Shown: piece by piece, positions 7,494-55,240 of the stretch | Numbering within the stretch: the stretch's first letter is position 1 | Layout of the letters: every line of letters begins with the position of its first letter | Source of the DNA: Gari tellinella | Lineage: Eukaryota; Mollusca; Bivalvia; Cardiida; Psammobiidae | Direction: 5' to 3' | NCBI GenBank assembly: GCA_922989275.2 | Contig: OV277870.1 | Span: forward strand, 42,900,356 to 42,964,355 | Length of the DNA: 64,000 nucleotides | The notes under the pieces: generated by a model | Seen by the model: only the letters and a program-made list of their open reading frames with translations | Told to the model about the DNA's origin: nothing | Database searches by the model: none | Made by a program: the position numbers and the translations under genes

Positions 7494-7708
7494 GAATTCT
7501 GATAATTCATGTTTATCTTGGTGGCAAACAATTTGGAGCCTGATCAGACGCCGGGTTACCCGGCTCTGATCTGGCTCCAAACTGTTTGCACTGAAAATAA
7601 TAGTTTTAGCGTAAACGCGTTTATTGGGAAAGAATAACAGATTCTCCACTGTATACTTTATGAAAAGCTCATTTATTATTGCCTTATAAATTAATGATGT
7701 ATTTCTTA

Positions 7709-7900: not shown

Positions 7901-8103
7901 TAGTATACGTACTCGATATCAAACCGTGTATGGGATAAAAAACGATCTGAGAAATGACAGGTCTGAGTGTTTTCGGAAGTAAACTCTGGGAATCACTGCA
8001 GGAGACAAATGTTATTAACTAACTGTTTCTTCTATAAGGCTTTTAAGAGCGTTGTCTCTTTATAACGATACACGCGTTTTTGCTAAGCAACGTTTACTAT
8101 GTA

Positions 8104-11888: not shown

Positions 11889-14800
11889 CTAAAGACATAT
11901 TTTAAGAATTATTGAGTAAATTGATTCATTGGGGTAAATTGCTGAATTTGGAATATGAATCATTTCATCTTTCCATTTTTGCAGACTTTTGGGATATTCT
12001 TCGCTTTTATTTAGTTGTTTGTAAATTGTCCTACAGCCTTTCTTATCAGAGTTTATAATGGCTAGGTTAATAGGTTGTAATAAGTTAAAATCTCTGTTTG
12101 GTAGATAGTGTACTCTTTTAATTTCAAGAAAGCGTTTAATTGAGCGGATGAGACCATTATATTCAATAAAATTGACGGCTACATTAAATCTTAAAGTAAA
12201 TTCTTCATAGGTGTATAGCTCACCATTACATTTTATTAGATCCCCTATGAACACTATCCCCGCAGCAAGCTATCTCTTATAGCAAATACTAGAACCTCCG
12301 ACCTTAATATTTGGGTTATACCATAAATTAGTACAAGCAATTTGACCCTCGTTTAGTGTACTTACACTTAGAGTTAATTTACAATAACTTAGTAGGACAT
12401 CTTTCCAGAATGGATTCAAATCTTGCTGTAACTGGCGTTTGATAAAATCTGAGCCATATTTGTAAATATCATGAAGGGCTTTGCATGCGCATTCAGCCAT
12501 ATGACTAAATTTATTATTCATAATGGACAATCTCCGCAGCCAAGTTAATTTTAGGCTGAACATGAAGTTATTCAACTCAATCATTTTGAGACCACCAAAT
12601 TTGTAGTCCTGCGTAATTGTGCTACGTTTGACTTTGTCATTTGACTTGTCCCACAAAAACTTAAAAAATAAATTTTGTATTTTATTGATTGTTTCTTGAG
12701 GTGGGCTGGGTATACTTAAAATTAAATGGTTGAGTTTAGCAAGAGCTAAAGTTTTTATAACAACTATTTTACCCAAAGGAGTAATGACTCTTTTTGACCA
12801 GCAGGAAAATAAGGCAATAATTTCCTCTATTTTTGATTCATAATTCATATCAATAATGTCTTTTAAATTAGTTGAGAATTTAACCCCAAGTACAGTGAAA
12901 AGAGTGTTTTCCCAAGATAGATTATATTCTGGGCATAACATTACTTGGCTGTTTTTTCGTGAACCAAACCATATAACTTTAGTTTTTTCTGTATTAATAT
13001 TAAGGTCGGAGATTCTTCCATAAAATTTTAAAACAAGTATTGCATTAACCAAGGATTCTTCAGAGCCATTTAAAAATAAACTTGTATCATCAGCATACTG
13101 AGATACTAAATACTCGATACCATTTATCTTAATTCCTTTGATTCTTTCATTATTTCTAAGTAGTATTGATAAAATTTCTGCACAGAGAATAAACAGGTAC
13201 GGTGACAAAGCATCCCCTTGACGACAGCCTCTTTGTAGTTGGAACCACTTAGACATGTGGCCATTTACTATGACACAGGACTCCACATTTGTATAAAATA
13301 TATTAACCCATCTTCTTATTGAAGGTCCAAAATTAAAAAAATCTAAAACTTTACTCATAAAACTCCACGAGACAGTATCAAAAGCTGCAGCAAAATCAAT
13401 TAAAAGAAGAAGTCCTGGAATATTATTTTGTTCAGTATAAAACAGTATATCGTATAGCAACCTGATATTTGTTGCCATAAGTCTACCTGGAAGAAAGCCT
13501 GTCTGGTCTTCATTTATAATGTTACCTAAAATATTTTTTATTCTAAAAGCTATTGATGCTGAAGCAATTTTGTAAGCAATGTTTAGTAATGAAATAGGTC
13601 TCCAATTTTTTAAATAATTTTTGTCTTTGTTTCCCTTAGGTATGCACGTAATGACTCCCTGTTTTTGGGTTACAGACAATTCCCCTACAGTATATGCATA
13701 ATTTATAGATCTCACTAAAAACATACCAATATCTTTCCAAAAAAATTAAAAAAAATTCCACTGTAAATCCATCATTACCTGGACTTGTATTGTTAGACAT
13801 TTTTTTTAAACTATTTGCCAGTTCAGTATATGTAAGTGCACCCTCCATTAATAATTTCTCCTGCTCATTAAGTTTTCTGGTATTTGTATTTACTAATAAT
13901 TCATGTAAATCAAAAATTATCCATTTCTGTAGCTTGATATAGACTTTGCTAGTGTCTTTTTGTTTCTTTCAAAATATCTTCTTGGGTTTTCAGAAGGTTA
14001 CCATTTGGTGTTAATAGAGAGTTCACACATTTTGAAACAAAATTACGGTTTTCTAAATTGCAAAAAATATTTTGTAGGTTTTTCTCCTTCCTGAATCCAT
14101 TTTGCTCTAGATCTGATAAAAACACCAGACAGTTTCTTTTTTCTTATTTCACCTAGTTCTCTTCTTTTATTGTCTAAAATGTCATAGTTAATATCAGTTT
14201 GTTTTTCTAACTTTTCAATTTCTTTCAAAATTTTATTCTCTTTGTTAATTTCAGATTTCTTTTTGTGTGAACAGTATGCAATAGTTTTTCCCCTAACGGC
14301 TAGGAGTAGAGATTCAAAGAATAACTGGTCATTTATAGTGAATGTAATATCTTCCAAAGGTATTTCCTCAATATCATTGTAAATGCCAGGGATTTCAGAA
14401 ATATACTGTGTTTTGGTGGATTTTATAATTGATTTTACTTCTTGTATATATAATTGATCTTTTAATAGAGAATTGTTAAATTTCCAATAAGATATTCCTT
14501 TTTGAAATTTATCAAATTGTAAAGAGATAAAAATTAGAAAGTGGTCTGTCCTATACCCAGGTAAAATTTTAGTTTCAACAGCATCTGTGTAAAGCATTTC
14601 AGATATGAGGAAAAAGTCAAGCCTTGGTTTTTTTAATTGGATTTCTCCTAAACCATGTATATTCTTTAGTTTCCAGATGATCTTCTCTCCAACAGTCTAT
14701 CAAATTATTTTCAATCATAAGGTTCAGAACTGAGTTTCTAGCATTTGGGTTATTAACATGAACATAGCTGAAACAGTCTATATTTGGATTAAGTATGAGA

Positions 14801-15210
14801 TTAAAATCTCCACTAACAATAAAAAACGAGTCATTCAGGTTATTGTAAAAATCAGGACTGTCTCTGTTTGGGCCATAGATATTAATCAAAACAACATTTT
14901 TTTCTGCAATTTTACAATCTAGAATTAATAAATTACCATTTGTATCTTGTTCAATATTGTTTACTTTGTAATCAAAGTTATTATTAATGAATGTGGCAAC
15001 ACCTCTAGATTGACTGTTGAAATTACTGAAAAAGCACCCGTAACCCCATTGACTTCTTATGTATCTTTCCTCATTAACAGTGAAGTGTGTGTCTTGAAGC
15101 ATACATATTGAATATTTCTTACTTTTAATAAAATTAATGACATCTTTACGTTTCTCTTTGTCGCCTAGTCCCTGTACATTCATAGATATTATATTAATTT
15201 TTTCACTCAT
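11889..15210 (-). pseudogene. L1/Tx1-type LINE ORF2: endonuclease and reverse transcriptase
   Basis: The sequence encodes the APE-like nicking endonuclease and RT of a non-LTR element. It starts at the ATG at 15210 with NIISMNVQGLGD. Endonuclease motifs are MLQDTHFT, INIYGPN, VSGDFNLILN and YRTDHFLI. RT motifs are NWRPISLLNIAYKIAS, TGFLPGR, LLLIDFAAAFDTVSW, GCRQGDALSPYLFILC, the catalytic QYADDTSLFL and VLGVKF. The C-terminal block IGDLIKCNGELYTYEEF is typical of the group. The frame is broken at about 14628 (T7 run), about 14066 (A6 run), about 13955 and about 13742 (A-rich run), plus an in-frame TAG at 12270-12272 where a Trp codon is expected. All domains are present, so it is nearly intact. 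Confidence 0.92.
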
Positions 15211-16110: not shown

Positions 16111-17920
16111 AGGTGTGTGAAGTTTGCACGACATTCGACAATTCGACATTCGACCTTTCACAAATGAAAGGTCGAACAGCTGTCGAATTTCGACTTTCGA
16201 CATTTAAGCTTTCACATAATGTAACAAATTTTGCCGATCGATAAGTCAGCTTTGCCATAATGTAGAAATATTGTCGAAATTCGACTTTCGACATTCAACA
16301 TTTTTAAAACACATTACTTTGTCGAACTGATGTCGAATTTCGACGTTCGACATTTATACAAAGTCGGGAAATTGTCGAATTAGGGTCGAATTTCGTCGTT
16401 CGACAAACTGCAAGTAAGGGAAAAAGTCGAAATATTGTCGAAATTCGACATTCGACATTCAAAATTTCTTAAACACATTACTTTGTCGAACTGATGTCGA
16501 ATTTCGACGTTCGACACTTAAACAAAGTCGGGAATTGTCGAATTAGTGTCGAATTTCGACGTTCGACAAACTGCAAGTAAGGGAAAAAGTCGAAACATTG
16601 TCGAAATTCGACGTTCGACATTCAAAATTTCTTAAACACATTACTTTGTCGAACTGATGTCGAATTTCGACGTTCGACATTTATACAAAGTCGGGAAATT
16701 GTCGAACTAGGGTCGAATTTCGACGTTCGACAAACTGCAAGTAAGGGAAAAAGTCGAAATATTGTCGAAATTCGACGTTCGACATTCAAAATTTCTTCAA
16801 CACATTACTTTGTCGAACTGATGTCGAACTTCGACGTTCGACACTTATACAAAGTCGGGAAATTGTCGAACTAGGGTTGAATTTCGACGTTCGACAAACT
16901 GCAAGTAAGGGAAAAAGTCGAAATATTGTCGAAATTCGACATTCGACATTCAAAATTTCTTAAACACATAACTTTGTCGAACTGATGTCGAATTTCGACG
17001 TTCGACACTTATACAAAGTCAGGAATTGTCGAATTAGGGTCGAATTTCGACGTTCGACAAACTGAAAGTAAGGGAAAAAGTCGAAACATTGTCGAAATTC
17101 GACGTTCGACATTCAAAATTTCTTAAACACATTACTTTGTCGAACTGATGTCGAATTTCGACGTTCGACATTGATACAAAGTCGGGAAATTGTCGAATTA
17201 GGGTCGAATTTCGACGTTCGACAAACTGCAAGTAAGGGAAAAAGTCGAAATATTGTCGAATTCGACGTTCGACATTCAAAATTTCTGAAACACATTACTT
17301 TGTCGAACTCATGCCGAATTTCGACGTTCGACACTTATACAAAGTCGGGAAATTGTCGAATTAGGGTCGAATTTCGACGTTCGACAAACTGCAAGTAAGG
17401 GAAAAAGTCGAACTATTGTCGAAATTCGACGTTCGACATTCAAGATTTCTTAATACACATTCACTCTGTTGAAATTATGTCGAATTTCGACGTCCAACAA
17501 TTTTCCGGACCCGGGAAAAGTCGAAATATTGTCGAAATTCGACAATGTTCTTTCAACAATTCTTTAATACATTCACTATGTCGACCTTATGTCTACTTTC
17601 GACGTTCGACAAGTGGCCTGGCAAGGAAAAAATCGAAATATTGTCGAATTTCGACATTCGACATTTCAACAAAGCCAGTAAAGTGTCTAATTTATGTATA
17701 TTTTCGACAATCGACAAATTTCCCGATAGTGCAATAGTCGAATTATTGTCGAATATCGACGTTTGACATTGGTCTTTTACCAAAATGTCGAAAATTTGTC
17801 CAAATTCGACGTTCGACTTTCAACATATCTTAAACACATTTACTATGTCGAATTTGTATCGAATTTCGACGTTCGACAATTTGCCGGGCCAGGAAATAGT
17901 CGAAATATTGTCGATTTCCC
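16111..17920 (+). repeat. Left inverted array: 163-164 bp tandem units of GTCGAA words
   Basis: After a unique outer stretch of about 200 bp, at least seven homogeneous units follow. The CTGCAAGTAAGGG landmark recurs at 16408, 16571, 16735, 16899, 17062 (one change), 17226 and 17389, giving a period of 163-164. Each unit contains several small palindromes such as GTCGAATTTCGAC and GTCGAAATTCGAC. From about 17450 inward the units diverge. Open frames through it are artefacts of the repeat. Confidence 0.92.
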
Positions 17921-22914: not shown

Positions 22915-25304
22915 TAAATTGTCGAAATTGAAATCTGATACTTTTTCCACATTTCCCAGACTTTATAGAAATGTTGAATGTTTACCACTTTGGTGAAAGG
23001 ACAATATCGAAAGTCGAAATTCGAAAATAGTTCGACTATTTACCTGTCTGGCAATTTCTCGCAAGTCGAACTTCGACAATAACTCGACATTTTCCCTGCA
23101 ATGGCACTTGTAAAACGTCACAATTCCACATAAGTTCGACATTGTGAATGTGGTAAAGAAATGTTGATTGTCAAATGACGAATTTCGACAACATTTCGAC
23201 TTTTTCTAGGTTCGCTAAATTATTGAACGTCTAATTTCTACACAAGTTCGACATAGTGAATGTTTTTAAGTAGTGTTGAAAGTCGAACATTGAATTTCGT
23301 CAAACGTTCGACATTTTGGTAAACGGACTATGTCGAATGTCGAAATTCGACATAAATAGTCGACTTTTTCCCGGTCTGGAAAATTGTCGTATGTCGAAAT
23401 TGGACACATGATCGACATAGTGGGTGTGTTAAAGTAATTTTAAAAGAAGAAAGTCGAATATTTGACAATTTTTCGATATTTTGGTAAAAGGATAATGTCC
23501 AACGTCGATATTCGACACTATTTCGACAATTGCACTATCGGGAAATTTGTCGATTGTCGAAAATATACATAAATTAGACACTTTACTGGCTTTGTTGAAA
23601 TGTCGAATATCGAATTTCGACAATATTTCGATTTTTTCCTTGCCAGACCACTTGTCGAACGTCGAAAGTAGACATAAGGTCGACATAGTGAATGTATTAA
23701 AGAATTGTTGAAAGAACAATGTCGAATTTCGACAATATTTCGACTTTTCCCGGGTCCGGAAAATTGTTGGACGTCGAAATTCGACATAATTTCAACAGAG
23801 GGAATGTGTATTAAGAAATCTTGAATGTCGAACGTCGAATTTCGACAATAGTTCGACTTTCTCCCTTACTTGCAGTTTGTCGAACGTCGAAATTCGACCC
23901 TAATTCGACAATTTCCCGACTTTGTATAAGTGTCGAAAGTCGAAATTCGACATCAGTTCGACAAAGTAATGTGTTGAAGAAATTTTGAATGTCGAACGTC
24001 AAATTTCGACAATATTTCGACTTTCCCCCTTACTTGCAGTTTGTCGAACGTCGAAATTCGACCCTATTTCGACAATTTCCCAACTTTGTATAAATGACTA
24101 ACGTCGAAATTCGACATCAGTTCGACAAAGTAATGTGTTTAAGAAACTTTTAATGTCGAACGTCGAATTTCGACAATATTTCGACTTTTTCCCTTACTTG
24201 CAGTTTGTCGAACGTCGAAATTCGACCCTATTTCGACAATTTCCCGACTTTGTATAAGTGTCGAACGTCGAAATTCGACATCAGTTCGACAAAGTAATGT
24301 GTTGAAGAAATTTTGAATGTCGAACGTCGAATTTCGACAATATTTCGACTTTCCCCCTTACTTGCAGTTTGTCGAACGTCGAAATTCGACCCTATTTCGA
24401 CAATTTCCCAACTTTGTATAAATGACTAACGTCGAAATTCGACATCAGTTCGACAAAGTAATGTGTTTAAGAAACTTTTAATGTCGAACGTCGAATTTCG
24501 ACAATATTTCGACTTTTTCCCTTACTTGCAGTTTGTCGAACGTCGAAATTCGACCCTATTTCGACAATTTCCCGACTTTGTATAAGTGTCGAACGTCGAA
24601 ATTCGACATCAGTTCGACAAAGTAATGTGTTGAAGAAATTTTGAATGTCGAACGTCGAATTTCGACATTATTTCGACTTTCCCCCTTACTTGCAGTTTGT
24701 CGAACGTCGAAATTCGACCCTATTTCGACAATTTCCCGACTTTGTATAAATGGCGAACGTCGAAATTCGACATCAGTTCGACAAAGTAATGTGTTTAAGA
24801 AGTTTTGAATGTCGAACGTCGAATTTCGACAACATTTCGACTTTTCCCTTACTTGCAGTTTGTCGAACGTCGAAATTCAACCCTAGTTCGACAATTTGCC
24901 GACCTTGTATAAATGTCGAACGTCGAAATTCGACATTAGTTCGACAAAGTAATGTGTTTAAGAAGTTTTGAATGTCGAACGTCGAATTTCGACAATATTT
25001 CGACTTTTCCCTTACTTGCAGTTTGTCGAACGTCGAAATTCAACCCTAGTTCGACAATTTGCCGATTTTGTATAAATGTCGAACGTCGAAATTCGACATC
25101 AGTTCGACAAAATAATGTGTTTTAAAGATGTTGAATGTCGAAAGTCGAGTTTCGACAATATTTCTACATTATGGCAAAGTTGACTTGTCGATCGGCAAAA
25201 TTTGTTACATTATGTGAAAGCTTAAATGTCGAAAGTCGAAATTCGACAGCTGTTCGACCTGTCGAATGTCGAATTGTCGAATGTCGTGCAAACTTCACAC
25301 ACCT
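22915..25304 (-). repeat. Right inverted array of GTCGAA words
   Basis: Reverse complement of the left array. It includes the matching outer unique segment (TTTGCCGATCGACAAGTC on the minus strand, near 25180) and eight or more units carrying CCCTTACTTGCAGTTTGTCG. It is longer than the left arm. A pair of adjacent units (about 23985-24310 and 24310-24640) repeats as a near-identical block of about 325 bp, which points to recent tandem amplification. Confidence 0.92.
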
Positions 25305-34738: not shown

Positions 34739-34911
34739 TATTTAGAAAACATTGATATATAGTCGTAATGTTTGTACTCGTTTATTTTCAATAGGTGGCG
34801 CTGTGGATTTACACATCTTAGTGTTGTTCACAGTTCATTTCATATTATCTATTCATTATTTCATTGTATTTTAACGTTAAATATGTACCAGGTGGCATTA
34901 AATATGAAAAA

Positions 34912-34980
34912 GCAAACAGTGATGACCCTGATGAGACACCGCGTAACGCGGTGTCTCATCAGGGTCAGCACTGTTTGCAA
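34912..34980. repeat. H1-variant hairpin
   Basis: GCAAACAGTGATGACCCTGA / TCAGGGTCAGCACTGTTTGC with GAGACACCGCGT / ACGCGGTGTCTC. One-base offset only; otherwise paired throughout. Confidence 0.8.
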
Positions 34981-35061
34981 ATAAACACTAGGCTTAAAAG
35001 GGTTAAATACATAGTGATCATTAGTTTTTCTCGTTGTACATGTATGACGTTTATGTTTAGA

Positions 35062-38000
35062 CTAGTCGTCCCACATGTCGTCTCCCCATCCCCAAAATGG
35101 CGGTGGTCGTCGCCAGAAATTACGCCAGGGATTCCACCAGTTCCACCAGTTATCTGCAACAAAAATGAGCACTTACATGTAACCAAAACAGTAAAAATGA
35201 TAGGACGAAAATAATTATATCTGAGGTAGTAAATATTGAATAGTAATCCATTCTCCGTTAGGGCTTACAATTACAAAAATCATGTTGTTTTTTAAATTAA
35301 GTTTCATATAGTTGTGAATGATTTATTGCAAAGTGGCCAACAGATAAGACCCTGACCAGAAGGCTCCTAAAGGAACCCTTCGATCAGGGACGACACTATT
35401 TCATTAGGACAGGCGTTCATTTAACATGTAAATTGTGAATGGCGAGTTTTCCCCGTACTGGGGCTGAAACTGCCAAGACCGACAGCAAAAGATTTGCAAA
35501 CGGTTTGGATCCTGATCAGACGCCGCGTTACGCGGCGTCTAATCAGGATCCAATCTGTTTAACACTTATGTCAATTGTTTTGTTAGTCAAAACGTGCAAT
35601 GACTTGTGAAAGGCAAAATCGCTAGATGGGTGAAATGGCTAGTGATTTATCGTGATGTGATATATGAAAGGCAAAACCATGTAATCAATTAAAGAGTACG
35701 TGTAATACTTTTGCAATATCTTGAGATTGTTGGAAGGGCAATAGTGCGGGATGGCTCGAAAGGCAATATTTTGAAATGACTGGAAGGGAAACATTGTATA
35801 ATGACTGGAAGGGAAATATTTTTTTATTTCTGGAAGGACACTATTGCGGTATGGCTGGAATGGAAACATTGCGGGATGGGTGTAAGGGCAATATTGCGGG
35901 ATGGCTGTAAGGGCAATATTGTAGGATTGCTTGAAGAGAAATATCGCTGGATGGCTGGAAGGGCAATATTGCGGGATGGCTGTAAGGGCAATATTGCGGG
36001 ATGGCTGGAAGGGAAACATTGCGGGATGACTGTAAGGGCAAGACTGCGGGATGGCTGTAAGGGCAATATTGTAGGATTGCTTAAAGAGAAACATTGCGGG
36101 ATGGCTGGAAGGGCAATATTGCGGGATGTCTGTAAGGGCAATATTGCGGGATGGCTGGAAGGGCAATATTGCGGGATGGCTGGAAGGGCAATATTGCGGG
36201 ATGGCTGGAAGGGCAACATTGCGGGATGGCTGTTAGGGCAATATTGCGGGATGGCTGGAAGGGCAATATTGCGGGATGGCTGTAAGGACAATATTGCGGG
36301 ATGGCTGGAAGGGAAACATTGCGGGATGGCTATAAGGGCGATATTGCGGGATGGCTGGAAGGGCAATATTGCGGGATGGCTGGAAGGGCAATATTGCGGG
36401 ATGGCTGTAAGGGCAATATTGCGGGATGGCTGGAAGGGAAACATTGCGGGATGGCTGGAAGGGCAAAATTGCGGGATGGCTGGAAGGGCAATATTGCGGG
36501 ATAGCTGTAAGGGCAGTATTGCGGGATGGCTGGAAGGGAAACATTGCGGGATGGCTGGAAGGGCAATATTGCGGGATGGCTGGAAGGGCAATATTGCGGA
36601 TTGGCGGGAAGGACAATATTGCGGGATGGCTGTAAGGGCAATATTGCGGGATGGCTGGAAGGGCAATATTACGGGATATCTGTAAGGGCAATATTGCGGG
36701 ATGGCTGGAAGGGAAATATTGCGGGATGGCTGGAAGGGCAATATTGCGGGATAGTTGGAAGGGCAATATTTCGGGATGGCTGGAAGGGCAATATTGCGGG
36801 ATGGCTGGAAGGGTAATATTGCGGGATAGCTGTAAGGCAGTATTGCGGGATGGCTTGAAGGGAAACATTGCGGGATGGCTGGAAGGGCAATATTGCGGGA
36901 TGGCTGGAAGGGCAATATTGCGGGATGGCTGTAAGGGCAATATTGCGGGATGGCTGGAAGGGCAATATTGGGGATGGCTGGAAAGCCAACATTGCGGGAT
37001 GGCTGTAAGGGCAACATTGCGGGATGGCTAGAAGGGAAACATTGCGGGATGGCTGTAAGGGCAATATTGCTGGATGGCTGGAAGGGCAATATTGCGGGAT
37101 GGCTGTAAGGGCAATATTGCGGGATGGCTAGAAGGGAAACATTGCGGGATGGCTGTAAGGGTAATATTGCTGGATGGCTGGAAGGGAAACATTGCGGGAT
37201 GGCTGTAAGGGCAATATAGCTGGATGGCTGGAAGGGAAACATTGCGGGATGGCTGTAAGGGCAATATTTGGGGAGGCTTAAATGTAAACTTTGTATAATG
37301 GCTTGGAGGGCAATATTGCGGGTTGGCTTGAAGGGCAATATTGTGGGATAGCTGGCAGGGAAACATTGTAGAATGACTGGAAGGGCAATATTGTGAAATT
37401 GATGGAAGGGCAATATTGTGGGAGGGCTGGAAGGGAACTATTGTGGGATGGCTTGAAGGGAAATATTGTGAGATGGCTGGAAGGACAATATTGTAGGATT
37501 GCTTGAAGAGAAATATTGTGGGATGGCTTGAAGGGCAACATTGAGGGAAGGCTTGAAGGGAAATATTGTGGGATTGCAGGAAGGGAAACATTGTTTAATG
37601 GCTTGAAGGGCAAAACTGCGGGATGACTGGAAAGGAAATATAGTGGGATGGCTGGAAGAGAAACGTTTTAGAATGGCTGGAAGGGCAACAGTGCGGGATG
37701 ACTGGAAGGGAAATATCGTGAGATGCCTGGAAGGATACCATCGTGAGATGACTTGAAGGACAATATCGGGAACTGACTTGGAGGGTAATATCGTGAGTTG
37801 ACTGGAAGGCAAATATCTTGCAATGTCAATGAATGGTATGTTAAACAGTATCGAGGAATGATCGGACGCAAAAATGCAAAGGTTACGTCATTGCGATATT
37901 ACATTAACGTTATGTGATTGAAATGTCGTCAACTGTACATTATTATTAGTACAGTGTTTTCCTAGGATACGTGAGGATTTATTCCCGGTGAGAAAAATCA

Positions 38001-39108
38001 CGGGGAGGGTTTCATGATTTCACCAGTCGGGAATATATCTCAATGTAACCTTAGAAAAAATGTATAACGAATTTATAATAGTGCCACGTTTTCACTGTTC
38101 AAACGATTTCGGCATTTTTCGTATATAGCGTTGAGTAAACAGTAACAAAATGGAGACAAAACAGTTGACGGCTGTTATTCAGTTTGAAGAAAAAGCGGCG
38201 CTCATAGGCGTCGGCGTCAAACTTTTTCAGAAAAGAAAAAAAGAGGTTGTTCAAAGATCCAAACCACGATTGATTCTCAGCCGCTGCCAAGATGGACTTA
38301 ATAAAGGAGGTTGCATTATTGAAGGCACTAAATCATGTCGGGCAGTCGGACATATTTCATTCTGTAAAGCAAGGCTGAGGAGCCTGTCAGTCAATGAAAA
38401 GCCTGTATTTCTATGTTCCCTGTCAACTCACAGGGTACATGGATTCAGGTCTTCGGCTTGTTATCCAATTAGAAGTGCAGAACTTATTTTTCAGTATAAA
38501 AAGAACCCTTAACCTCCTCCTCCGTTAACAATTAAAAAGGAGAATGGGCGATTACATACATTTAACAAATAGTGTACCCGTGAAGAGTACACTCGGCCTA
38601 TGCAAACAGTGAAGACCCTGATCAGAGGGCTTATCTCCTCTAATCAGGGGTAGTTCCTGTTTGTCAGTTTGCAATAGATTGTTAAAATTCAATTTATGAA
38701 GTTCTTGTGACTTATCCAAACAGTTTTTACCTTTGTGACAGTTTCGGTTCTCCATTGGAGCACCTTCATCAGACTGTGACATCCGCGGATGTCACAGTCT
38801 GATGAAGGTGCTCCAATGGAGAACCGAAACTGTCACAAAGGTAAAAACTATTTGGATAAGTCACAAGAACTTCATAAATTGAGTGTATTACTATCCTGAT
38901 GAACTTTTTTCGAGAATTGTTTAAAGTATTCCTAAAAAGTAAGAAATTAGTTAAACATGGAAACTGGTTGGTTCCATTTCCAGTTCCAGGGGTGAATGGA
39001 TTAATATATCTACTTACTTGTTTGTGGTTGTGCCGTTGTCTGTGCAGCCACGAGGCAGACAGCCACAGCCAGCAAGAGCACTGCTGTGATGGCGTGTGTC
39101 ACCCACAT
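35062..39108 (-). CDS. Two-exon gene for a 60-residue secreted Trp-rich peptide
   Basis: Exon 1 is 39108-39018 and exon 2 is 35153-35062, on the minus strand. Exon 1 starts with ATG and encodes a 30-residue signal-peptide region, MWVTHAITAVLLLAVAVC followed by LVAAQTTAQPQT. The donor is CAA/GTAAGT. Exon 2 follows TTTTTGTTGCAG; the split codon (A + AT) gives Asn and phase 1 is kept. It encodes NWWNWWNPWRNFWRR, a PPPFWGWG turn and an acidic tail DDMWDD, with 9 Trp in 29 residues, then TAG. The predicted cleavage is near LVAAQ. The mature part has no Cys. The 3.9-kb intron holds the 25-bp minisatellite and a large palindrome. A paralogue with the same intron phase lies at 48061-55125. I do not recognise the family; an antimicrobial or membrane-active role is only a guess from composition. 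Confidence 0.75.
35341..35405. repeat. H1-variant hairpin, degenerate
   Basis: CAACAGATAAGACCCTGACC with AGAAGGCTCCT / AGGAACCCTTCGATCAGGG. It belongs to the GACCCTGATCAGAGG subtype of H1. Confidence 0.55.
35495..35565. repeat. H1 hairpin (M5-like context)
   Basis: GCAAACGGTTTGGATCCTGA is paired with TAATCAGGATCCAATCTGTT around GACGCCGCGTTACGCGGCGTC. Flanking CAAAACGTGCAATG suggests a worn M5 element. Confidence 0.75.
35730..37822. repeat. 25-bp minisatellite, about 80 units
   Basis: Unit consensus is GGAAGGGCAATATTGCG plus GGATGGCT. Centre units (about 36100-37050) are nearly identical; both edges decay. The left edge has TTGAAATGACTGGAAGGG and the right edge ATCGTGAGATGACTTGAAGG. Because 25 is not a multiple of 3, every frame cycles through all three phases, and the consensus lacks stops on either strand. 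Long Pro/Ser/Ile-rich frames (one of 529 residues on the minus strand) are therefore artefacts. It lies in the intron of the Trp-rich peptide gene. Confidence 0.95.
37823..38600. other. Mostly unique DNA with one weak open frame
   Basis: An imperfect inverted repeat (CCTAGGATACGTGAGG with ATTCCCGGTGAG / CACCAGTCGGGAAT) spans 37963-38070. A 120-residue plus-strand frame (38150-38512) starts METKQLTAVIQFEEKAAL. I see no domain, signal peptide or splice support, so I do not call it a gene. Confidence 0.4.
38601..38670. repeat. H1-variant hairpin, degenerate
   Basis: GCAAACAGTGAAGACCCTGA with TCAGAGGGCTTATC / CTCTAATCAGGGG. It belongs to the GACCCTGATCAGAGG subtype. Confidence 0.6.
38689..38882. 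repeat. Near-perfect palindrome with 97-bp arms and no spacer
   Basis: The symmetry centre is CCGCGG (38783-38788). The arms begin TCAATTTATGAAGTTCTTG and mirror at 38864-38882, with a single mismatch (AAACAGTT against AACTATTT). It lies in the intron of the Trp-rich peptide gene. Such a sequence can form a cruciform or a long dsRNA hairpin if transcribed. Confidence 0.95.
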
Positions 39109-40012
39109 ATCTCCTGTTACCGCACACAAAGTCCACAGAAAGAGGTTATATCTGCATTAATACGGCGACGTCAACTGTCTTGAGGAGCAGCAGTGGATAT
39201 GACTTGATATAGAAGAGACATTAAACATTCTACTGCTGATTTCACAGTTTTATAGATTACCTCAAGGTTTTTCTGTCATTAAAGTTCATTGTTGTAATTG
39301 CGTTTAAAATTCGCTTGTAATCTGTAAAATTTTCATCACTTACCCACGTCTTGTAATTGCGATTTGCAACCAGTTGGGATCAAGATAATACGTCCGCGTT
39401 ACTCGGCATGTAAACAAGAACTAACTTGTTTGCGACACGTATCGGTAATTTGAGCCAAAGTGTCAAAAGACGAGATATAAAAAGGAGAAAAGCAGATGGC
39501 ATATTACAGGAGATGGCCAAGGGAATTCAAGGGTTGAATTACCTAGATCAATTATGTACACTGGGTTGTAAAAGTACAGATATATACATGTACATGTATC
39601 AGGGTCTATCTCGTTAAGAAAATTTGCGGGCGACTTACAGTAGGTTGCTATTTATATGGAAGTGGTAAATATCAGAATGTTTCCTTTTGGAAAAATGCCC
39701 CATAAAAAAAGGTTTATATAAATGATTGCTGATAACTGGTCGATTTTAATGAACGAGTTGAGTTAAATAATATGACGCCAAACCTAACGAGCGTCGTATT
39801 TACCTTAGTGAACGATCTTATTTAAATAATAATATGTGGGATAACATGTATATTCAGCATGTAATCATTTCAAAAACCTATTTAGTTTATTCAAGATGTA
39901 AGTTTTAATTTGCTCCGCACTGATATGTTCCGTCAAACGTGACTTTAGTTATTTACTAGTGATATCATTTTGATTTTTCGTTTCATGCACTGCTTTTGGG
40001 TCAACAAGGATT
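39109..40012. other. 5' flank of the Trp-rich gene and unique DNA
   Basis: About 70-80 bp upstream of the exon 1 ATG the minus strand has GTTGACGTCGCC, which resembles CAGACGTCTCC upstream of the paralogue. A weak TATA candidate, CTATATCA, lies at 39205-39212. Beyond this I see only a worn H1 fragment (39370-39425) and AT-rich DNA. Confidence 0.4.
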
Positions 40013-41141: not shown

Positions 41142-41508
41142 CAGTGTTCCCTCCTTACAACGTCCCTCCCAACAACGACTTCCTCCTAACAACGTCCCTT
41201 GCCGCAATTCCCTAAACAGGACAATTACACCTAACGCTTTTACTGCTGCAATACCGTCTGCTCAAAATTGTCGTCAGCTGTTTTTCTCAAAGTTACATAT
41301 AAGTGAATATTTTGATTGTATAAATATAATGACGAGTGACAAACAGCTTGAATCCGGATCAGACGCCGCATTATGCGGCGTCTGATCTGGATTCAAGCTG
41401 TTTGCAAATTCAAATCAAGTCTTAATTTTCCCGTCCTATAACGACTCCCTCCGAACAACACACATTATATGTGTCTCGCATTGGGAATCGTTGTACAGAG
41501 GGAGCGTG
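41142..41508 (-). mobile_element. M2 MITE
   Basis: TA at 41140-41141 and 41509-41510; ends CAGTGTTCCCTCCTTACAAC and GTTGTACAGAGGGAGCGTG. H1 hairpin at 41337-41406 with GAATCCGGATCAGACGCC. Confidence 0.9.
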
Positions 41509-42413: not shown

Positions 42414-42842
42414 TTGAATAATTAGAAGACTAAACAAGTTTATTTATGGGGTAAAGGGTTGAATATTTTAGTCGCTGGACAATATTTTTGTCACATTGAT
42501 TACAGTGGAGAATCTGTTATTCTTTCCCGTTTAAACGCAAACGTACGCAAACGCAAAGCACTAAAACGTAGAAAAGAACAACTTTTGGACAATTCTGATA
42601 TTTCATCTTTATCTTGGTGGCAAACAGATTGGAGCCTGATCAGACGCCGGGTGACCCGGCGTCTGATCTGGCTCCAAACTGTTTGCAAGGGCAATGATAG
42701 ATTTAGCGTAAACGCGTTTATTGGGAAAGAATAACACATTCTCCACTGTAATTGAATAATTAGAAGAATAAACAACTTTATTTATGGGTAAAGGGTTGAA
42801 TATTTTAGTCGCTGGACAATAGTTTTTGTCACATTGATTAGT
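42414..42842 (+). repeat. About 88-bp direct repeats flanking an M1 copy
   Basis: 42414-42502 (TGAATAATTAGAAGACTAAAC ... CACATTGAT, shortened here) recurs at 42751-42842 with about 90% identity by eye. Between the two copies is exactly one M1 MITE. The repeat includes GGGTAAAGGGTTGAATATTT, the end of an M4 element. Confidence 0.8.
42503..42748 (+). mobile_element. M1 MITE
   Basis: TA at 42501-42502 and 42749-42750. Ends CAGTGGAGAATCTG and ACATTCTCCACTG; H1 at 42619-42688. Confidence 0.93.
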
Positions 42843-47722: not shown

Positions 47723-47903
47723 TATCAGAAGCAATTACTGCAAATGATCTATACAACCTGGGAATGTGCAGTGCCCTATAACATGTTCAAGGGACTATGA
47801 TCTTGTTCTTTTTCAAATATCCAGCCTTGCGTTCATTAGCGAAAACTCTCACGAACATCTATGTTCGGGAAAAACCATAGGTGGAGGGACAATGACAACA
47901 ACT

Positions 47904-47909
47904 GATTTA
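47904..47909 (-). terminator. Candidate poly(A) signal of the 48061-55125 gene
   Basis: AATAAA on the minus strand about 150 bp after the stop codon at 48061. No downstream element was tested. Confidence 0.35.
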
Positions 47910-48060
47910 TTCAATATCGTCAGTCAGTACATTTAATATAGTATAATTGTTTTTTATACAAAACGGTTTATGAAGGCGACGTCATGTTAGGGGAAAATGA
48001 CGTATTTCATTCAAAATGTTTTCATTTGAGGTTGTCTTGGTCCACATTCAGTCCGCTCAT

Positions 48061-51000
48061 TCAACAGTTTGTTGACCCATCACGAAACCAGCCACCCCAG
48101 CACCCTTTCCAATTCCGTGGGTTCCACCACTGACGCATCCATTTCCACATAGTATCCGGGCCCTCATCTGTAACGAAAATAACCCTTCAACCCTTATTTT
48201 TGTTAAATTGTCGTCTGGTTCAAATATATCATCTGCGAAAAAAAAAATCTTTTTGACTGTGTTTTTTAACTGAAGAAAAAGTTGAAAAGAAGTGTCCAAA
48301 AGTTTTGATCCTGATACGAAACCGCGTTCACGGTGTCTGATCGGGATCCAACTGTTTGCCAATGTTAAGCAGGTCGTGCTTATGATATCACGATAAGGAT
48401 TAATAATTTCAATCTTATACCCCCATTCCACTGGACGACGATTTTTGTGATTCATAAATGGCGAATCGCCGTGAAGACGCCTTGATCGTCGCTAGATCGT
48501 ACAGAGCGTAGTGTGAGCGCCCAGAGCGTACGAGGAACGTAGCGGAATCGCGGGCAAAAACAATGTATCTCGACGATTTTAGTACGATGCGACTACGCTT
48601 GCGCTACGTCAACCACGCTGCGACTGCGTTGCTACTACGCTCATGAATTTCTTAGTACGCTTCTGCTGCGCTTCTGCTGCGCTTCGAGTCCACGGCGATG
48701 CCGCTACGTAAATTTTGAGCAGGGTCAAAACATTCGCCGTGAGGTGGCGATCAAGAGCTTCTGTGACGCTTCTACTACGATCAGGGCGTTTCTACTGCGC
48801 TGTTGCCGTTCCTACTACGATTCGCGGCGATTTTACCAAAGTTTCGAAGCGTAGGGGAATCGCCGCTCAGTGGAATGGGGGTATTATGCTAGGTTCACAC
48901 CAACGGCGAATGCCGCGCTTTAAATCGGCGAGCAAAGCGTCGTCATTTTCGTTAACTTTTCCAAAAGCATCACGATCTCTTACGGTCTGATAAGCTCTGA
49001 TACGCTCTGATACGAATTGGTTGCCGCTTTGGGGCGAATCATTTCCCGACTTGTTACGGTTCCTCACGCATTGATCCCGCTTTGACCAGGCTTTGTTGCG
49101 CTTGAAATCACGCTTTTATAAGCTTTATTACGCTTTATCACGCTTTGATGCGATTGTGGCGCTTTAAATAAGGCTCTGATACGGTTATCGCGCTTTGTTG
49201 TGTATTGGTACGCTCTGTTCAGCTCTGTTACGCAATGGAAAATGTCAAGATCGCTGATTTAATGCCGCTTTTTATCCAGAGCCCATATAACGATGCAGTA
49301 GAACCACAAACTTTTTGTACATTTGACTCAAGTATACGATGGCAAAACAACAAGATCCAGAAGTTCCAAATATACCAAAGCATTATCTATCTGAAGAAGA
49401 CATGATGTTTGTCTCCCAATTGTATAACTACATCCTAGCCCTTGAAAGCGTGAAAGAGCGTGAGAGAGCGTAAGGAAGTTTGCCAAGCGTAACAAAGCCT
49501 AACAAAACGTGTCAAGCCTTGATCGAAGCGTCTCAATTCGTGGGAAATCATGAGAGTCCTTCATGAAAACGTAACAAATCGTAACAAAGCGTGTCATATC
49601 TTGATGAAAGCGTCTGACCTCGTGTCAAATCTTCATGCCAGATCGTAACAAATCTTGAGATATCTTAACGAAGCGTGTCAAGTGGTGACAGACCGTGAAG
49701 AATGGAGTCCCCGCTTTGAACCAAGCTCTGTTAAGCTTTCCTACGCTTTGAGTCAAGCTTTGCTGAGCTTTGTTACGCTTTGTTAAGCTTTGATAAGCTT
49801 TGATACGCTCTAGGCGCTTTAATCAAATCGTGACAGAGCGCCCAAAATTTTTAAACAGTTTAAAAAAATTGGGCGCTCTTGCCGAATGTCCCGCTTTACT
49901 CCAAGCTTTCCCACGATCTATTACAACACTGACGCTTTAATCAAGCTTTGTTACGCTTTGGTGCCGCTTTGCACGCCGCTTTAAAGCGCCATCAAAGCGC
50001 CGTTGGTGTGAACCTAGCATTAGCGAAGAGTATACAGTGGAGAATCTGTTATTCTTTCCCAATAAACGCGTTTACGCTAAAACTATTATTTGCAGTGCAA
50101 ACAATTTGGAGCCAGATCAGACGCCGGGTAACCCGGCGTCTGATCAGGCTCCAAACTGTTTGCCACCAAGATAAACAAGAATTATGAGAATTGTCCAAAA
50201 GTTGTTCTTTTCTACGTTTTAGTGCTTTGCGTACGCTTGCGTTTAAACGGGAAAGAATAACACATTATCCACTGTATTCGCCATTAACAAACTGCACCTT
50301 TAAAGAGTTCATTTGGCCTTTACAGAAAGTGTAAACAAACAGTTTAGCTTCTGGTGTTTTTTCCTGGCATAATTTTTGACAATTATTGAATACAAAGTAT
50401 CGTTTTATAATATAAACCATCAATTAGTTCATTCTTCAATATTGTTCTTATCTGGGGTGAGTCTCATCCTTTAAGATAATCTAAAAAACATGCATTAACA
50501 AGCCGTAAATCCGATTCATTATTTAACCCTTTACCTGGTAGCCTATTTCTAGTACTTAAGATAGGTGACTACTTAAAGCAGGTTGAAAGTAAAGCAGAAT
50601 GCGCCTTCGGGCGCATTCTGCTTTACTTTCAGCCTGCTTAAAGCTATCATGTACTACATGTATAATATAGAAAATATTCCCTAAAATACATATTCATTAC
50701 TGATTAAATTGGAACTATTTTCTTCAGCGGATGAATAAATCATAGCCGCTAAAAGGCGCTTCTATTGGGGGAAAGGGTTAACTCTTTCGTTGCCAAATGA
50801 CTCGTGAGATATTTACCCCTTCGTCGTTTCATTGTCGTCTTCTTCAAATTTATTGTTTGCAAGATCGTTTCAAAGTAAGATTCAATGTTTTATGACTTAA
50901 AACATATCGATAGGAGTATCAAACAATTCAGATCCTGATCCGACGCCGCTTTACGCGTTTTTTGGCGTCATTAAGAGTGAAATGGTAAAGGCTTTGTTTA

Positions 51001-54000
51001 TAACTGTACAGTGTTGTCGGTTGTACTGAACTATGTTTTGCCTAATTCACGTTCCATACGTTGTGTATTTAGTCTGAATTTCATAAACTTTAACAACTGG
51101 CCATATACAGTGGAGAATCTGTTATTATTTCCCGTTTAAACGCAAACGTACGCAAACGCAAAGCACTAAAACGTAGAAAAGTACAACTTTTGGACAAATT
51201 TGATAATTCATGTTTATCATGGTGGCAAACAGTTTAGAGCCTGATCAGACGCCGGGTTACCCGGCGTCTGATCTGGCTCCAAACTGTTTGCACTGCAAAT
51301 AATAGTTTTAGCGTAAACGCGTTTATTGGGAAAAAATAACGTTTTCTCCACTGTAATAAGCTTAATATCTAAATTATGTACATAACAGAGCATATTATAA
51401 TTAGGCTTATACTTACAGTATCTTATTAATTTTATTTTAAACAATATGCATAATTGCCATGGAATCTATGACTGGATCAAATATAATAAGAACATGCAAG
51501 TTTACATTTGACAAATTTGATTGTGGGTATAACCTATCCATATAATAATGAGCATATGGGATATTTTCTACAAATTCTTCCTCCGCCATTGAAAGCTATT
51601 GGTTATTGTATGTCTTTCTTTGTCATATATTAACCAATTAAACTTTTTAACGAACATTCCAGATTCTAGTCCATTTATGATTATATGTATTTAGGGTTTC
51701 TTCCTAGAATTTATTTAAGGAATAATTCGAATATTTATTGTATTCATGGAGGTATGAAAAAAAACCTGGTCACACTGTATGAAACCGCGAAGCGGTTTCA
51801 TACAAAAGTGTGACCAGGTTTTTTTTTCATACCTCCATGAATACAGTAAATATTCCGAATTATTCCTTATAATTTAATATCACTTCTGAATTTAAGAAAG
51901 TAGTTAAATAGAGAATCTGACGCGAATGTTCTTTTTTAACGCTTTAAAACGTAGGTTGTAGTCCCTCCGCCATATATATTTTCCGGCGTGGCCTGAATTT
52001 CATTTTTTTCATGGAGTTATGAAACAAAAATTACAGCCAATCACAGCTAACCAAATGTAATGAAAACAAACAATAATATGTATTTAGGCTTTTCCTATGG
52101 ACGGAAAAAAGCAAAATTATACTAATGAAAACGGAATAGATCTATCACCAGTGTGTATTAGTTCGTTGTGTATTCCAGATCACACTCGAGGCTACGCCTC
52201 TCGTGACTGAGATCTGGATTACACAACCGACTCGAACTTTTATTTTATACCTAAATTGTTTGGGACAAGATCTATATGTTGTTAAACCAAATAATCAAAT
52301 AGATCTATAAGCACCCGTGTATACAATGTCAAAAGTTAACACTCCTCCGTACACCTATAATGCAATCTGAAACTATTTTTGGAAGTCATATGACTACCAA
52401 TAATGACGTCATTATTTATATTGATGGCGTATTGGTAATCCGTTATTTTTATCGGTTCGATTGAGAAGTAGATTTTTGTAAATAACGTTCATTTAAGCGT
52501 TTAAGGGTATGAATTGAACTGTTTGAAGCTTTGTCCTTTGGAGAAAATCATTTCAAGTGAGTGTTGGGGGTTATTCATGCTTATTAATGGTTTAAAAATA
52601 GCACCGAAATCGGGAATTCCGAAACGTCACGCACAACTCTTCGTAAAAGCCGTGACGTCATCATCCAAGATGTCAGCCCCCATGTTTTGTAGATGCCTAG
52701 TTTTGAGGAAATTATTCACGCGCAAATCAAACACTTTTCAAAGTCTGTTAGTGATTGAATAAAATTGGAATACCTTTGATTTTATCATGCATTACTTAAG
52801 AACGGAAAATAGGCAAGCCTTTTTTCCGTATTAAATTATTCCCCAATGAAAATCAAAGCAGCCCCTGAACAGAGGGTTCCTTTTTCGGCCCGATTTGTGG
52901 CGTATATTATCATGTCTGTGAAAAGGGGGTACCCTGAGAAAAACCAACGTGTGTGGATGGGCGACAAATTGATCATTTCGTAAATCTACTACAGCGCCTC
53001 CTCTCTACAACGGCCCTCTCAACAACGACTCCCTCCTTACAACGACACTCGTCGTAAATCCCTTAACGGGATAATTCAGTCTAACTCTTTAACTGCCCCA
53101 ATATCGTCTGCTTAAGATTGTCGTTTGCTGTTTTCCCTCACAGTTACATATAAGTGGAGATTTTTATAGAATACATATATTGACCAGTGACAAACAGTTT
53201 GAATCCTGATCAGACGCCGCGTGACGCGGCGTCTGATCTGGATTCAAGCTGTTTGCCAATGTAAGTCAATTCTTAATTGTCCCTCTCTATAACGACTCCC
53301 CCCGAACAACACACACAGTATGTGTCTCCCATTGGATGTCGTTATAGAGAGGGATCGCTGTAGTCTCATTATGTTTCACTGTTAAGTTATAAGCCTATTA
53401 AATGTTCAGCGCATTATACAATATTTCTTTGAAATCATGTGTGGTAAGTGGCAAAATACAGTAAAATATGTCTATTACGACCACAAAAACGGCTAATTGA
53501 TTTAATAAAAGACGGATGACAGATGAAAGCAATTTGAAAGAAAAACTGAAAACTCCTTAATTATTTTTGTGTTGCTTTGATGGTCGTATTAGAGATTCTT
53601 TACAGAAGTTCAATATATCTGACACCGTTGTAGATTTATTTAGAGGCCGGCCAGTCCAAACTGTTGCAACAGATACTTCGCGTGCTTCGTGTGAATGATT
53701 AATGCATTTGAAATCAAATTTATAAACAGATCGGATAGACGCAAAGGGAATTTTACCTCTGGTCAGGATTCAAAGCGTTTTATGGTCCTTTTTAAATTTA
53801 ATCTGTTCGAAAGACAATTCACCATATTTGAAAGAAAATTAAGCAATCATCGCCAAATTCGGTTGAATCATACAGTGCAATATCAAGAAAAGGTTTGTAT
53901 TACGTATAGCATTGTAACCAATGAACCATTACTGCCATAAATAGTGCTTCTTATGACAGGACAGCGTTATAGTTTTCAATAAACAATTACGTGCTTACAT

Positions 54001-55125
54001 TGCAAACGCTTTTAAATCATTATCAAGCTTTTGAATGGGTCAGATTTGAGCCTAGGCTCAAATCTGACCAATCAAATGCTTGAGATCAAACTCAAACTCA
54101 ACTCAAACGCTTTATAAGCGCTGGACCAGACCACAAATAACCAATATTTAAACCATTCACTGCAGTGACGCAATCAATTTTAAGCAATTGTCTACAGGAA
54201 AACCCCTCTAAACCGGAACCTCTCAATACCAGAATTCTCTCTAAACCGGACTAAATCAGTTATCTTCCATACTAGAAACAAGCTATCGGTTAAAACCCCT
54301 CTAAACCGGAACCTCTCAATACCGGAATTCTCTCTAAACCGGACTAAATCAGTTATCTTCCATACTAGAAACAAGCTATTGGTTAAAACCCCTCTAAACC
54401 GGAACCTCTCAATACCGGAAGTCTCTCTAAACCGGACTAAAACTTTGGTCCCGTTTATAACACTTCTTTATTAAACACATAACACTATAAAATGCCTTTT
54501 TACGCCTTTGATCTATTTCTTCACTGAAAATTATATATTTCTGAATATGTATCATCAGAAATAGATTATACAGATGCTAGCTTAAAGCAGGTTGAAAGTA
54601 AAGCAGAATGCCCCTTAAGGCGCATTCTGCTTTACTTTCAACTGCTTTAAGTGATCAGCTATCTTCCATACTAGAAACAAGCTATTGGTTAAAACCCCTC
54701 TAAATCGGAAACCCCTCTAAACCGGACTTTTATTTTGTCCCCATACGTGTCCGGTTTAGAGGGGTTTCACTGTATTTTCATTTCTCTAATTTAAATTTAA
54801 GGAAGAAACTGAAGAAATATTGTAATAAGTGTCAAACAACTTTGATCCCGATTAGACAACGCGAAATGCTGCGTCATATCGAGAACCTAACTGTTTGCAA
54901 ATAACTATCGTACTCGGGGAAAGACAGTGCAAATGTTAAAGCAAATAACCAAAAGCTGTTTATTTCCTTTAACTGCTTCATCACTGTATTTTTCCTCTTA
55001 CCTGACTTTGTTTTCATTGGAATCGTGTCTTTCATTTTCATCCTGTCTGATAGTGGCTGTGCAGTAACGAGACAAACAGCTACAGATAGCACAAACGCTG
55101 CTATGATTAGGTTTCTTGACAACAT
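48061..55125 (-). CDS. Two-exon gene for a 76-residue secreted Trp-rich peptide (paralogue)
   Basis: Exon 1 is 55125-55002 and exon 2 is 48167-48061, on the minus strand. Exon 1 encodes a signal peptide, MLSRNLIIAAFVLSVAVC then LVTAQ, followed by a basic linker with DRMKMKDTIPMKTKS. The donor is TCAG/GTAAGAG. Exon 2 follows TTTTCGTTACAG; the split codon (G + AT) gives Asp in phase 1. It encodes EGPDTMWKWMRQWWNPRNW and KGCWGGWFRDGSTNC, then TGA. WWNPRNW here matches WWNPWRNFW in the gene at 35062-39108, as do the AVCLV.AQ signal core, the intron phase and the 5' flank, so they are paralogues. Two Cys could pair. The peptide part is basic, whereas its paralogue ends acidic. The 6.8-kb intron contains several transposons. 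Function unknown. Confidence 0.75.
48296..48362. repeat. H1 hairpin, degenerate
   Basis: CCAAAAGTTTTGATCCTGA with GAAACCGCGTTCACGGTGTC and GATCGGGATCCAACTGTTTG. Confidence 0.6.
48418..48883. mobile_element. Foldback element built from CTACGC / GCGTAG words (TTA target)
   Basis: Ends TACCCCCATTCCACTG and CAGTGGAATGGGGGTA are inverted repeats. TTA stands at 48415-48417 and 48884-48886. The interior repeats GCTACTACG, TACGCTTCTGC and their complements. TTA target plus short inverted ends fits PIF/Harbinger, which is inference. It lies in the intron of the Trp-rich paralogue. Confidence 0.85.
48887..50019. mobile_element. Foldback element built from ACGCTTTG / CAAAGCGT words (TTA target)
   Basis: Ends TGCTAGGTTCACACCAACGG and its exact complement at 50000-50019; TTA at 48884-48886 and 50020-50022. 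The interior is saturated with ACGCTTTG, GATACGCTCTG, AACAAAGCGTG and similar words in both orientations. No coding frame. It shares the central TTA with the element at 48418-48883, so one inserted at the other's edge. Confidence 0.88.
50035..50274 (-). mobile_element. M1 MITE
   Basis: TA at 50033-50034 and 50275-50276. H1 at 50097-50166. It lies only 12 bp from the preceding foldback element. Confidence 0.93.
50523..50781. mobile_element. M4 piggyBac-like MITE with perfect H2 hairpin
   Basis: TTAA at 50523-50526 and 50778-50781; ends TTAACCCTTTACC and GGGGAAAGGGTTAA. The H2 hairpin (50574-50644) pairs AAGCAGGTTGAAAGTAAAGC with GCTTTACTTTCAGCCTGCTT around AGAATGCGCC. Best-preserved copy of M4. 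Confidence 0.85.
50778..50997. mobile_element. M5-like MITE, degenerate
   Basis: TTAACTCTTTCGTTGCC start, GCAAGATCGTTTCAAAGTAAG middle, broken H1 (CAGATCCTGATCCGACGCC), end AAGAGTGAAATGG. It abuts the M4 copy and shares its TTAA. Confidence 0.5.
51108..51353 (+). mobile_element. M1 MITE
   Basis: TA at 51106-51107 and 51354-51355. Ends CAGTGGAGAATCTG and CGTTTTCTCCACTG; H1 at 51225-51294. Confidence 0.93.
51716..51871. repeat. Long palindrome (arms about 72 bp)
   Basis: TTAAGGAATAATTCGAATAT mirrors ATATTCCGAATTATTCCTTA; ACCTGGTCACAC pairs with GTGTGACCAGGT; the centre is ACCGCGAAGCGGT. A few mismatches and a 3-base bulge (AAA). Confidence 0.88.
51872..52990. other. Mostly unique DNA with one palindrome
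   Basis: A 77-bp imperfect palindrome lies at 52161-52237 (GTTCGTTGTGTATTCCAGAT / ATCTGGATTACACAACCGAC, centre GAGGCTACGCCTC). An 82-residue plus-strand frame at 52514-52762 shows no domain. Nothing else supported. Confidence 0.5.
52992..53360 (-). mobile_element. M2 MITE
   Basis: TA at 52990-52991 and 53361-53362. Ends CAGCGCCTCCTCTCTACAAC and GTTATAGAGAGGGATCGCTG; H1 at 53190-53259 with perfect GACGCCGCGTGACGCGGCGTC. Confidence 0.92.
53459..53603. mobile_element. M3 MITE, short and degenerate
   Basis: CAGTAAAATATGTCTATTAC and GATGGTCGTATTAGAGATTC ends; the H2 core is reduced to GAAAACTCCTTAAT. Confidence 0.55.
54195..54772. mobile_element. Tigger-like MITE with a triplicated terminal repeat
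   Basis: Right end GTTTAGAGGGGTTTCACTG, then TA at 54773. The left end AAAACCCCTCTAAACCGG is repeated three times with a 93-bp period (54199, 54292, 54385). An H2 hairpin (54579-54652) lies inside. It is inserted within an M5-like element whose halves are at about 54150-54192 and 54776-54940. The CAGTGAAACCCCTCTAAACC end is Tigger/pogo-like. Confidence 0.8.
54776..54940. mobile_element. M5-like MITE, right part
   Basis: Degenerate H1 (AACAACTTTGATCCCGATTA / GAGAACCTAACTGTTTGC) and tail ATCGTACTCGGGGAAAGACAG match 8640. The left part (CACTGCAGTGACGCAATCAA) lies before 54192. Confidence 0.5.
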
Positions 55126-55233: not shown

Positions 55234-55240
55234 ATTTATA
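55234..55240 (-). promoter_or_regulatory. TATA box of the Trp-rich paralogue
   Basis: TATAAAT on the minus strand, 109 bp upstream of the ATG at 55125. A start of transcription near 55205 would give a 5' UTR of about 80 bases. Confidence 0.55.

Follow-up and report, generated by a model that had tools for sequence, protein, structure and literature searches.

The linear cationic antimicrobial peptides of Mytilus and Modiolus, known as myticalins and modiocalins (PMC5577615, PMC12294457), are among the described systems closest to the genes considered here. Myticalins combine a conserved signal peptide (consensus MKGXXLLLLTIXXALCMIXECEG) with a diverged mature part; both are encoded by one exon, with a 5′ untranslated region (5′UTR) exon upstream of the start codon and a phase-1 intron after the mature part, and a dibasic site is followed by an anionic C-terminal extension of 35-75 residues (PMC5577615). 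Tryptophan (Trp)-rich peptides like indolicidin, a bovine cathelicidin, lie and act at membrane interfaces (PMC8583803), and hedistin, strongylocin 2 and the centrocins are marine peptides bearing bromotryptophan (PMC8659048). Among the byssal proteins of the quagga mussel, Trp accounts for 13.6% of Dbfp16, 13.0% of Dbfp14-alpha and 9.1% of Dbfp10-alpha, the last of which has an acidic-aromatic C-terminus (PMC6474901). Here we report that a stretch of 64,000 nucleotides (nt) from the bivalve Gari tellinella (GenBank assembly GCA_922989275.2, contig OV277870.1, positions 42,900,356 to 42,964,355; hereafter the window) very probably carries two real, spliced genes on its minus strand, designated gene A and gene B, each predicted to join a signal-peptide exon to a short Trp-rich exon.

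An earlier note had proposed gene A to be spliced and to encode a secreted peptide dense in Trp. Its exons (39108-39018 and 35153-35062), the phase-1 junction and the GTAAGT donor were all present in the minus-strand sequence, and joining both exons in phase 1 reproduced the product of 60 amino acids (aa) with nine Trp within the last 29 residues. The elements of gene A are listed below.

39018..39108, minus strand: coding part of exon 1 with the start codon (ATG at 39108), signal peptide and short spacer; 91 nt, phase 1, donor CAA/GTAAGT.
35154..39017, minus strand: predicted GT-AG intron of 3864 nt.
35062..35153, minus strand: coding part of exon 2 with the Trp-rich tail, RR site, acidic end and stop codon TAG, which ends at 35062.
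39249..39254, minus strand: TATAAA, 146 nt 5′ of the start codon; a consensus match only.
34781..34786, minus strand: AATAAA, 275 nt past the stop codon; a possible polyadenylation signal, as a consensus match only.

The stretch TTTTTGTTGCAG directly precedes the start of exon 2 at 35153, and a short Trp product is obtained from only one of the three joining frames. The predicted mature peptide comprises 38 residues with 24% Trp and contains neither Cys nor Tyr. On the plus strand, an open frame of 116 aa (34864-35214) runs antisense over exon 2, without evidence for its status as a gene.

Upstream of gene A on the minus strand is a second predicted gene, gene B, which was absent from the earlier note. 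The exons follow each other on this strand in the order 1B, 2B, 1A, 2A, as two tandem genes of one plan.

55002..55125, minus strand: coding part of exon 1 with the signal peptide and a longer spacer containing Lys and Met; 124 nt, phase 1, donor CAG/GTAAGA.
48168..55001, minus strand: predicted GT-AG intron of 6834 nt.
48061..48167, minus strand: coding part of exon 2 with the Trp-rich cationic tail, two Cys and stop codon TGA.
48168..48232, minus strand: stretch between an alternative acceptor and the acceptor of the Trp frame; its inclusion would lead to a 99-aa Gly-rich product.
55235..55240, minus strand: TATAAA, 115 nt 5′ of the start codon; a consensus match only.
47906..47911, minus strand: AATAAA, about 148 nt past the stop codon; a possible polyadenylation signal, as a consensus match only.
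Starting at 47937, minus strand: ATTAAA on the 3′ side of gene B; a consensus match only.

Exon 2 of gene B, which begins at 48167, is directly preceded by TTATTTTCGTTACAG. A single TATA[AT]A motif occurs in the 400 bp 5′ of each of the two start codons. The product of 76 residues contains seven Trp. Its predicted mature part (54 residues, 13% Trp, net charge +4, no Tyr) consists of a 25-residue spacer with a net charge of 0 and a 29-residue tail with a net charge of +4 and 24% Trp, which contains W, K, R and two Cys separated by 11 residues.

Genes A and B are best explained as tandem paralogues. When exon 1 of gene A together with 52 bases upstream was compared with the window by blastn, the single other match paired 39118-39037 with 55135-55054 at exon 1 of gene B (72% over 82 bp, E 3e-7 within the window). 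With 18 codons aligned gap-free, the two exons gave a DNA score of 43, which no base shuffle (of 1000) and no codon shuffle (of 5000, maximum 27) attained; among the best tiles listed, 150-base tiles away from both exons scored no higher than 23. The score of the signal protein parts was likewise reached by none of 5000 residue shuffles. Over 23 codons, the synonymous (dS) and nonsynonymous (dN) substitution rates were 0.64 and 0.32, respectively; over the last 11 codons, at the end of the signal peptide, they were 0.82 and 0.09, with only five silent and two changing differences. The scores of the neighbouring stretches were at chance level, being reached by 530 of 1000 shuffles for the 5′ flank, 486 for the 5′ end of the intron, 153 for its 3′ end and 382 for the 3′ flank. 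Since similarity in the flanks and intron ends does not rise above that of shuffled sequence, the conserved part is the signal-coding region with about 10 bp before the start codon. In these shuffle comparisons other than the codon shuffles, exon 1 of gene B was cut at 55004, exon 2 at 48168-48060 and the flanks likewise, 1-2 bases off the final borders, and the exon 1 score with the exact borders was again 43. The spliced-gene reading of the earlier note is thus strongly backed by a paralogue whose signal exon is homologous, whose phase-1 donor is of equal quality and which has a Trp-rich second exon of its own. The gene A locus is best read as encoding, in spliced exons, a secreted peptide dense in Trp.

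A transposon as the source of the exon 1 match was ruled out, as the four exons carry no self-repeat match (E 1e-10, at least 60 bp) and the similarity ends about 10 bp before the ATG. Such matches cover 41% of the window, 65% of the gene A intron and 35% of the gene B intron. Two-sequence profiles of the signal and the tail recovered A and B alone in the window, with the next hits at E 0.96 and 5.5, and gave no further family members. An alignment of the two tails around WWNP-RN-W with silent differences only was set aside and is not used here, because it depends on where the gaps are placed.

The Trp density, described earlier as very rare, was compared with chance over all stop-free 29-codon stretches in the six frames of the window. 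Gene A came first with nine Trp, followed by the minus-strand stretch at 48150 in exon 2 of gene B with seven, and the next two stretches had five. When the window was dinucleotide-shuffled 300 times, no stretch exceeded six Trp, a value reached in four shuffles; stretches with fewer than five Trp were skipped here, so that the high end of the distribution alone counts. In the window as a whole, the minus strand has 12 donors scoring at least 8/9 and the plus strand 14; those of genes A and B both score 8. We then scanned both strands by rule, a signal exon being defined by an ATG, a hydrophobic core and a phase-1 donor of at least 8/9, and a Trp exon by an acceptor, a phase-1 frame and at least six Trp. 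Exactly two signal exons and two Trp exons were returned, those of A and B, compared with means of 0.02 and 0.005 in 200 one-strand shuffles, in which two Trp exons never occurred. The frames, splice-site motifs, signal-exon homology, chance-level flanks and introns, and Trp density beyond chance are given directly by the sequence. It is very improbable that we are dealing with unrelated open stretches that resemble exons, or with decayed relics. Such a reading could draw on the single example behind the earlier note and on the many GT and AG sites offered by 64 kb, but the signal exons are homologous with mostly silent differences in their core, the scan returned both exon types twice, seven or nine Trp per stretch were unreached by any shuffle, and open frames and splice-site motifs are present in both copies. 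Chance origin was rejected on the paralogue and the shuffles.

Searches against known families gave no assignment. The best Pfam match of gene A scored 15.4 bits against a cut-off of 25.8 and that of gene B 14.9 against 27.3, both to unrelated families, and the alternative product of gene B had no Pfam match up to E 0.1. With phmmer against the PDB (threshold E 0.001), gene B had no match up to E 10 and gene A had two at E 1.9. A family of such peptides was not found among the literature matches listed, with subscription papers mostly outside the coverage. Among the matches listed, none for the text strings WWNWW, WWNPW and WWNPR had a title pointing to such a peptide, and the phrase C-mannosylated tryptophan was absent in connection with mussel or foot protein. 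The earlier statement that no molluscan family shows this pattern holds as far as the surveyed literature, Pfam and PDB reach.

Like the myticalins and modiocalins, A and B would form a small multigene family with a conserved signal, a diverged mature part and a phase-1 coding intron. Gene A further resembles myticalins in its Cys-free mature peptide and in carrying an acidic end behind a dibasic site, and myticalin subfamilies D and E are enriched in Trp, as here, though the Trp-rich D subtype has 12% compared with about 24% in the tails of A and B. Unlike in myticalins, however, the phase-1 junction lies between the signal and the Trp tail in both genes, and the signals of A and B share no consensus block with theirs as judged by eye. 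The acidic extension has 14 residues in A and is lacking in B, compared with 35-75 in myticalins, and gene B contains Cys, unlike the Cys-free myticalins. The TATAAA motifs at -146 and -115 might point to a 5′UTR of A and B within exon 1, unlike the upstream 5′UTR exon of myticalins. With the signal sequence, intron place and acidic-end length all different, A and B fall outside the myticalins.

Indolicidin and tritrpticin, the latter a pig cathelicidin, offer a comparison by type and not by descent, in that they are short peptides combining a high Trp content with Arg and Pro and act at the membrane interface, as is proposed here for A and B; unlike them, the gene A peptide is not strongly cationic. 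Like the predicted products of A and B, the byssal proteins Dbfp10, Dbfp14 and Dbfp16 are small, secreted and Trp-containing, and one of them has an acidic-aromatic end, but they are Cys-rich or contain Tyr and have other signal peptides (PMC6474901). Of the 17 dreissenid byssal proteins in the published table, 13 were each compared with A and B; the smallest of the 26 values was 5 of 500 shuffles, for A against Dbfp17, and membership in this group was rejected on these comparisons. Hedistin, strongylocin 2 and the centrocins are defence peptides that marine invertebrates secrete and in which Trp is modified, although just one or two Trp per peptide in the examples described (PMC8659048). As a separate observation, the published quagga byssal protein Dbfp13 starts with MKGVFLLLAIVCIMVEAGG and is rich in Pro and Arg, and by eye it resembles the myticalin signal consensus and composition (PMC6474901, Table 2). 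Instead of an adhesive, Dbfp13 may represent a peptide of the myticalin kind.

From the features of both genes we infer splicing, secretion, cleavage, membrane action and a role in defence, which would proceed as follows. In each gene, a signal exon would be joined through a phase-1 intron to a short tail exon with about one-quarter Trp. The product would be secreted, with the signal cut at V-x-A/Q, which is common to both by eye; because both signals end in this way, the mature peptides would start with Gln, which could cyclise. Gene B would yield a 29-residue tail of net +4. In the Cys-free mature part of gene A, the RR site would separate a +3 Trp/Asn portion from the 14 residues of the acidic end (-4), which may neutralise the rest as a propart. 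Like known Trp-rich defence peptides, the products would insert Trp side chains into microbial membranes at their interface. Tentatively, we therefore place a role in defence first: A and B would form a small family that evolves fast and whose secreted, Trp-rich peptides most likely act on membranes. The reasons are the layout with an acidic propart, which as in myticalins would keep a defence peptide harmless, the indolicidin-like Trp richness, and the conserved signal with a changed mature part, again as in myticalins. The chances are about even that they represent an undescribed, lineage-restricted multigene family of secreted peptides in which a conserved signal exon is spliced across long introns to hypervariable exons with about 24% Trp, the tails being organised in WW pairs and WxxW units and serving as a defence arsenal based on Trp or as a cohesive secretion.

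Several points weigh against this picture of two defence genes. The thresholds of the rule scan were chosen with both genes already known. The Trp tails show no significant alignment beyond composition, as their protein score was reached by 1099 of 5000 shuffles and that of exon 2 DNA by 110 of 1000, and the whole-protein score, with signal and mature parts shuffled separately, was reached by 16 of 1000. High Trp coincides with a net positive charge in the gene B tail (24% Trp, +4), while gene A with the same 24% Trp has -1 as a whole and just +3 up to the RR site, low values for a cationic antimicrobial peptide of the classic kind. The acceptor of the Trp frame in gene B has a pyrimidine fraction of 0.60, the joint lowest of the four listed, and is outscored by upstream acceptors at 48269 (0.87) and 48232 (0.73), which lead to other products. 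From 48269 the frame meets a stop after 13 residues. From 48232, which has a longer T run (TTTTTTTTTTCGCAG), a 99-residue Gly-rich product is obtained in another frame.

This acceptor choice gives rise to an unlikely alternative in which gene B is mainly spliced upstream, chiefly at 48232, to the Gly-rich protein, and gene A remains the sole source of a Trp peptide. Besides the better acceptor, such a reading can point to an open frame that ends a few bases beyond the stop of the Trp frame, and to TGG-rich DNA encoding Gly in another frame, so that the Trp frame could be accidental. In gene A, the corresponding Gly frame is open through the 150 bases translated, and none of the five acceptors listed at or upstream of exon 2 (within 350 bp, pyrimidine at least 0.6) leads through it. 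Because the listed acceptors of gene A bypass the Gly frame, the Trp frame is the sole reading with a phase-1 acceptor common to both genes. Moreover, it would have to be an accident that the stretch ranking second in Trp density in the window follows a homologous signal exon on its own strand.

With both genes taken as real, the main rival to a role in defence is that the peptides are structural or adhesive secretions of the byssus, shell, periostracum or mucus, which we regard as possible but clearly less probable. Tyr is the usual source of DOPA, and it is missing from mature A (0/38) and mature B (0/54). This lack is a weak argument, because Dbfp16 and Dbfp17, two of the 13 byssal proteins examined, also have no mature Tyr. 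In favour of cohesion, Trp would provide stacking and cation-pi contacts, gene A is Asn-rich with an acidic-aromatic C-terminal stretch, and small secreted byssal proteins of the quagga mussel can be Trp-rich (PMC6474901); none of the 26 byssal comparisons, on the other side, gave a notable alignment. More doubtful still are signalling products such as a neuropeptide, a pheromone or a growth-factor-like peptide, freed at the RR site in gene A. A signal peptide, one short product and the single dibasic site in A would suit them, and the two Cys of gene B, with 11 residues between them, could close a loop. Against this, the peptide copies are not repeated, the RR site of A lacks a preceding Gly for amidation, the two mature peptides are too different for ligands of one receptor (1099/5000), and the Trp level far exceeds that usual for neuropeptides.

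The window also contains several repeats, some of them within the genes. A 25-bp minisatellite of about 80 copies (35731-37734) lies in the gene A intron and yields long open frames that look spurious (minus strand up to 529 aa, plus strand up to 294 aa). Near exon 1, the same intron holds a near-perfect palindrome of 194 bp (38689-38882, 99% self-complementary), possibly a hairpin-type mobile element. A palindromic element of about 65 bp at 35494-35560 recurs at 17 or more further places, e.g. 41340-41404, 42617-42688 and 53187-53258, and another palindrome (34912-34978) is located in the 3′ region of gene A. A dispersed 250-bp repeat at 42501-42750 has copies starting at 8102, 32109, 43806, 47724, 50279, 51106 and 60566, which among the matches listed are 90-97% identical to the first copy, and is probably a recent short interspersed element (SINE) or similar; the gene B stop is followed after about 340 bp by the copy at 47724. 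Away from both genes, a 164-bp tandem repeat forms two arrays (16265-17493 and 23721-25164) about 6 kb apart, with a common GTCGAAATTCGAC core and on opposite strands as judged by eye. Retrotransposon remains were found on the minus strand at 122-2893, 5664-7649 and 11889-15210. One of them has protease-like, reverse transcriptase and RNase H matches; the two others have reverse transcriptase, together with an RNase H-like frame in one and an endonuclease-like frame in the other, just below the cut-offs.

Genes A and B exemplify a class of genes with two small exons that is invisible to open-frame searches, and their exact predicted junctions are given here. As the coding exons span just 91-124 nt, gene finders can easily miss such genes. 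WxxW is a motif for C-mannosylation. A ribosomal peptide with about 24% Trp and WW pairs, Cys-free in A, would be an extreme natural case for activity at membrane interfaces, and the same Trp density would be an extreme case for Trp modification, by bromination or by C-mannosylation at WxxW, or for cohesive assembly. If the two genes are transcribed, the lineage of this bivalve would have a further family of secreted peptides, one of very high Trp density.

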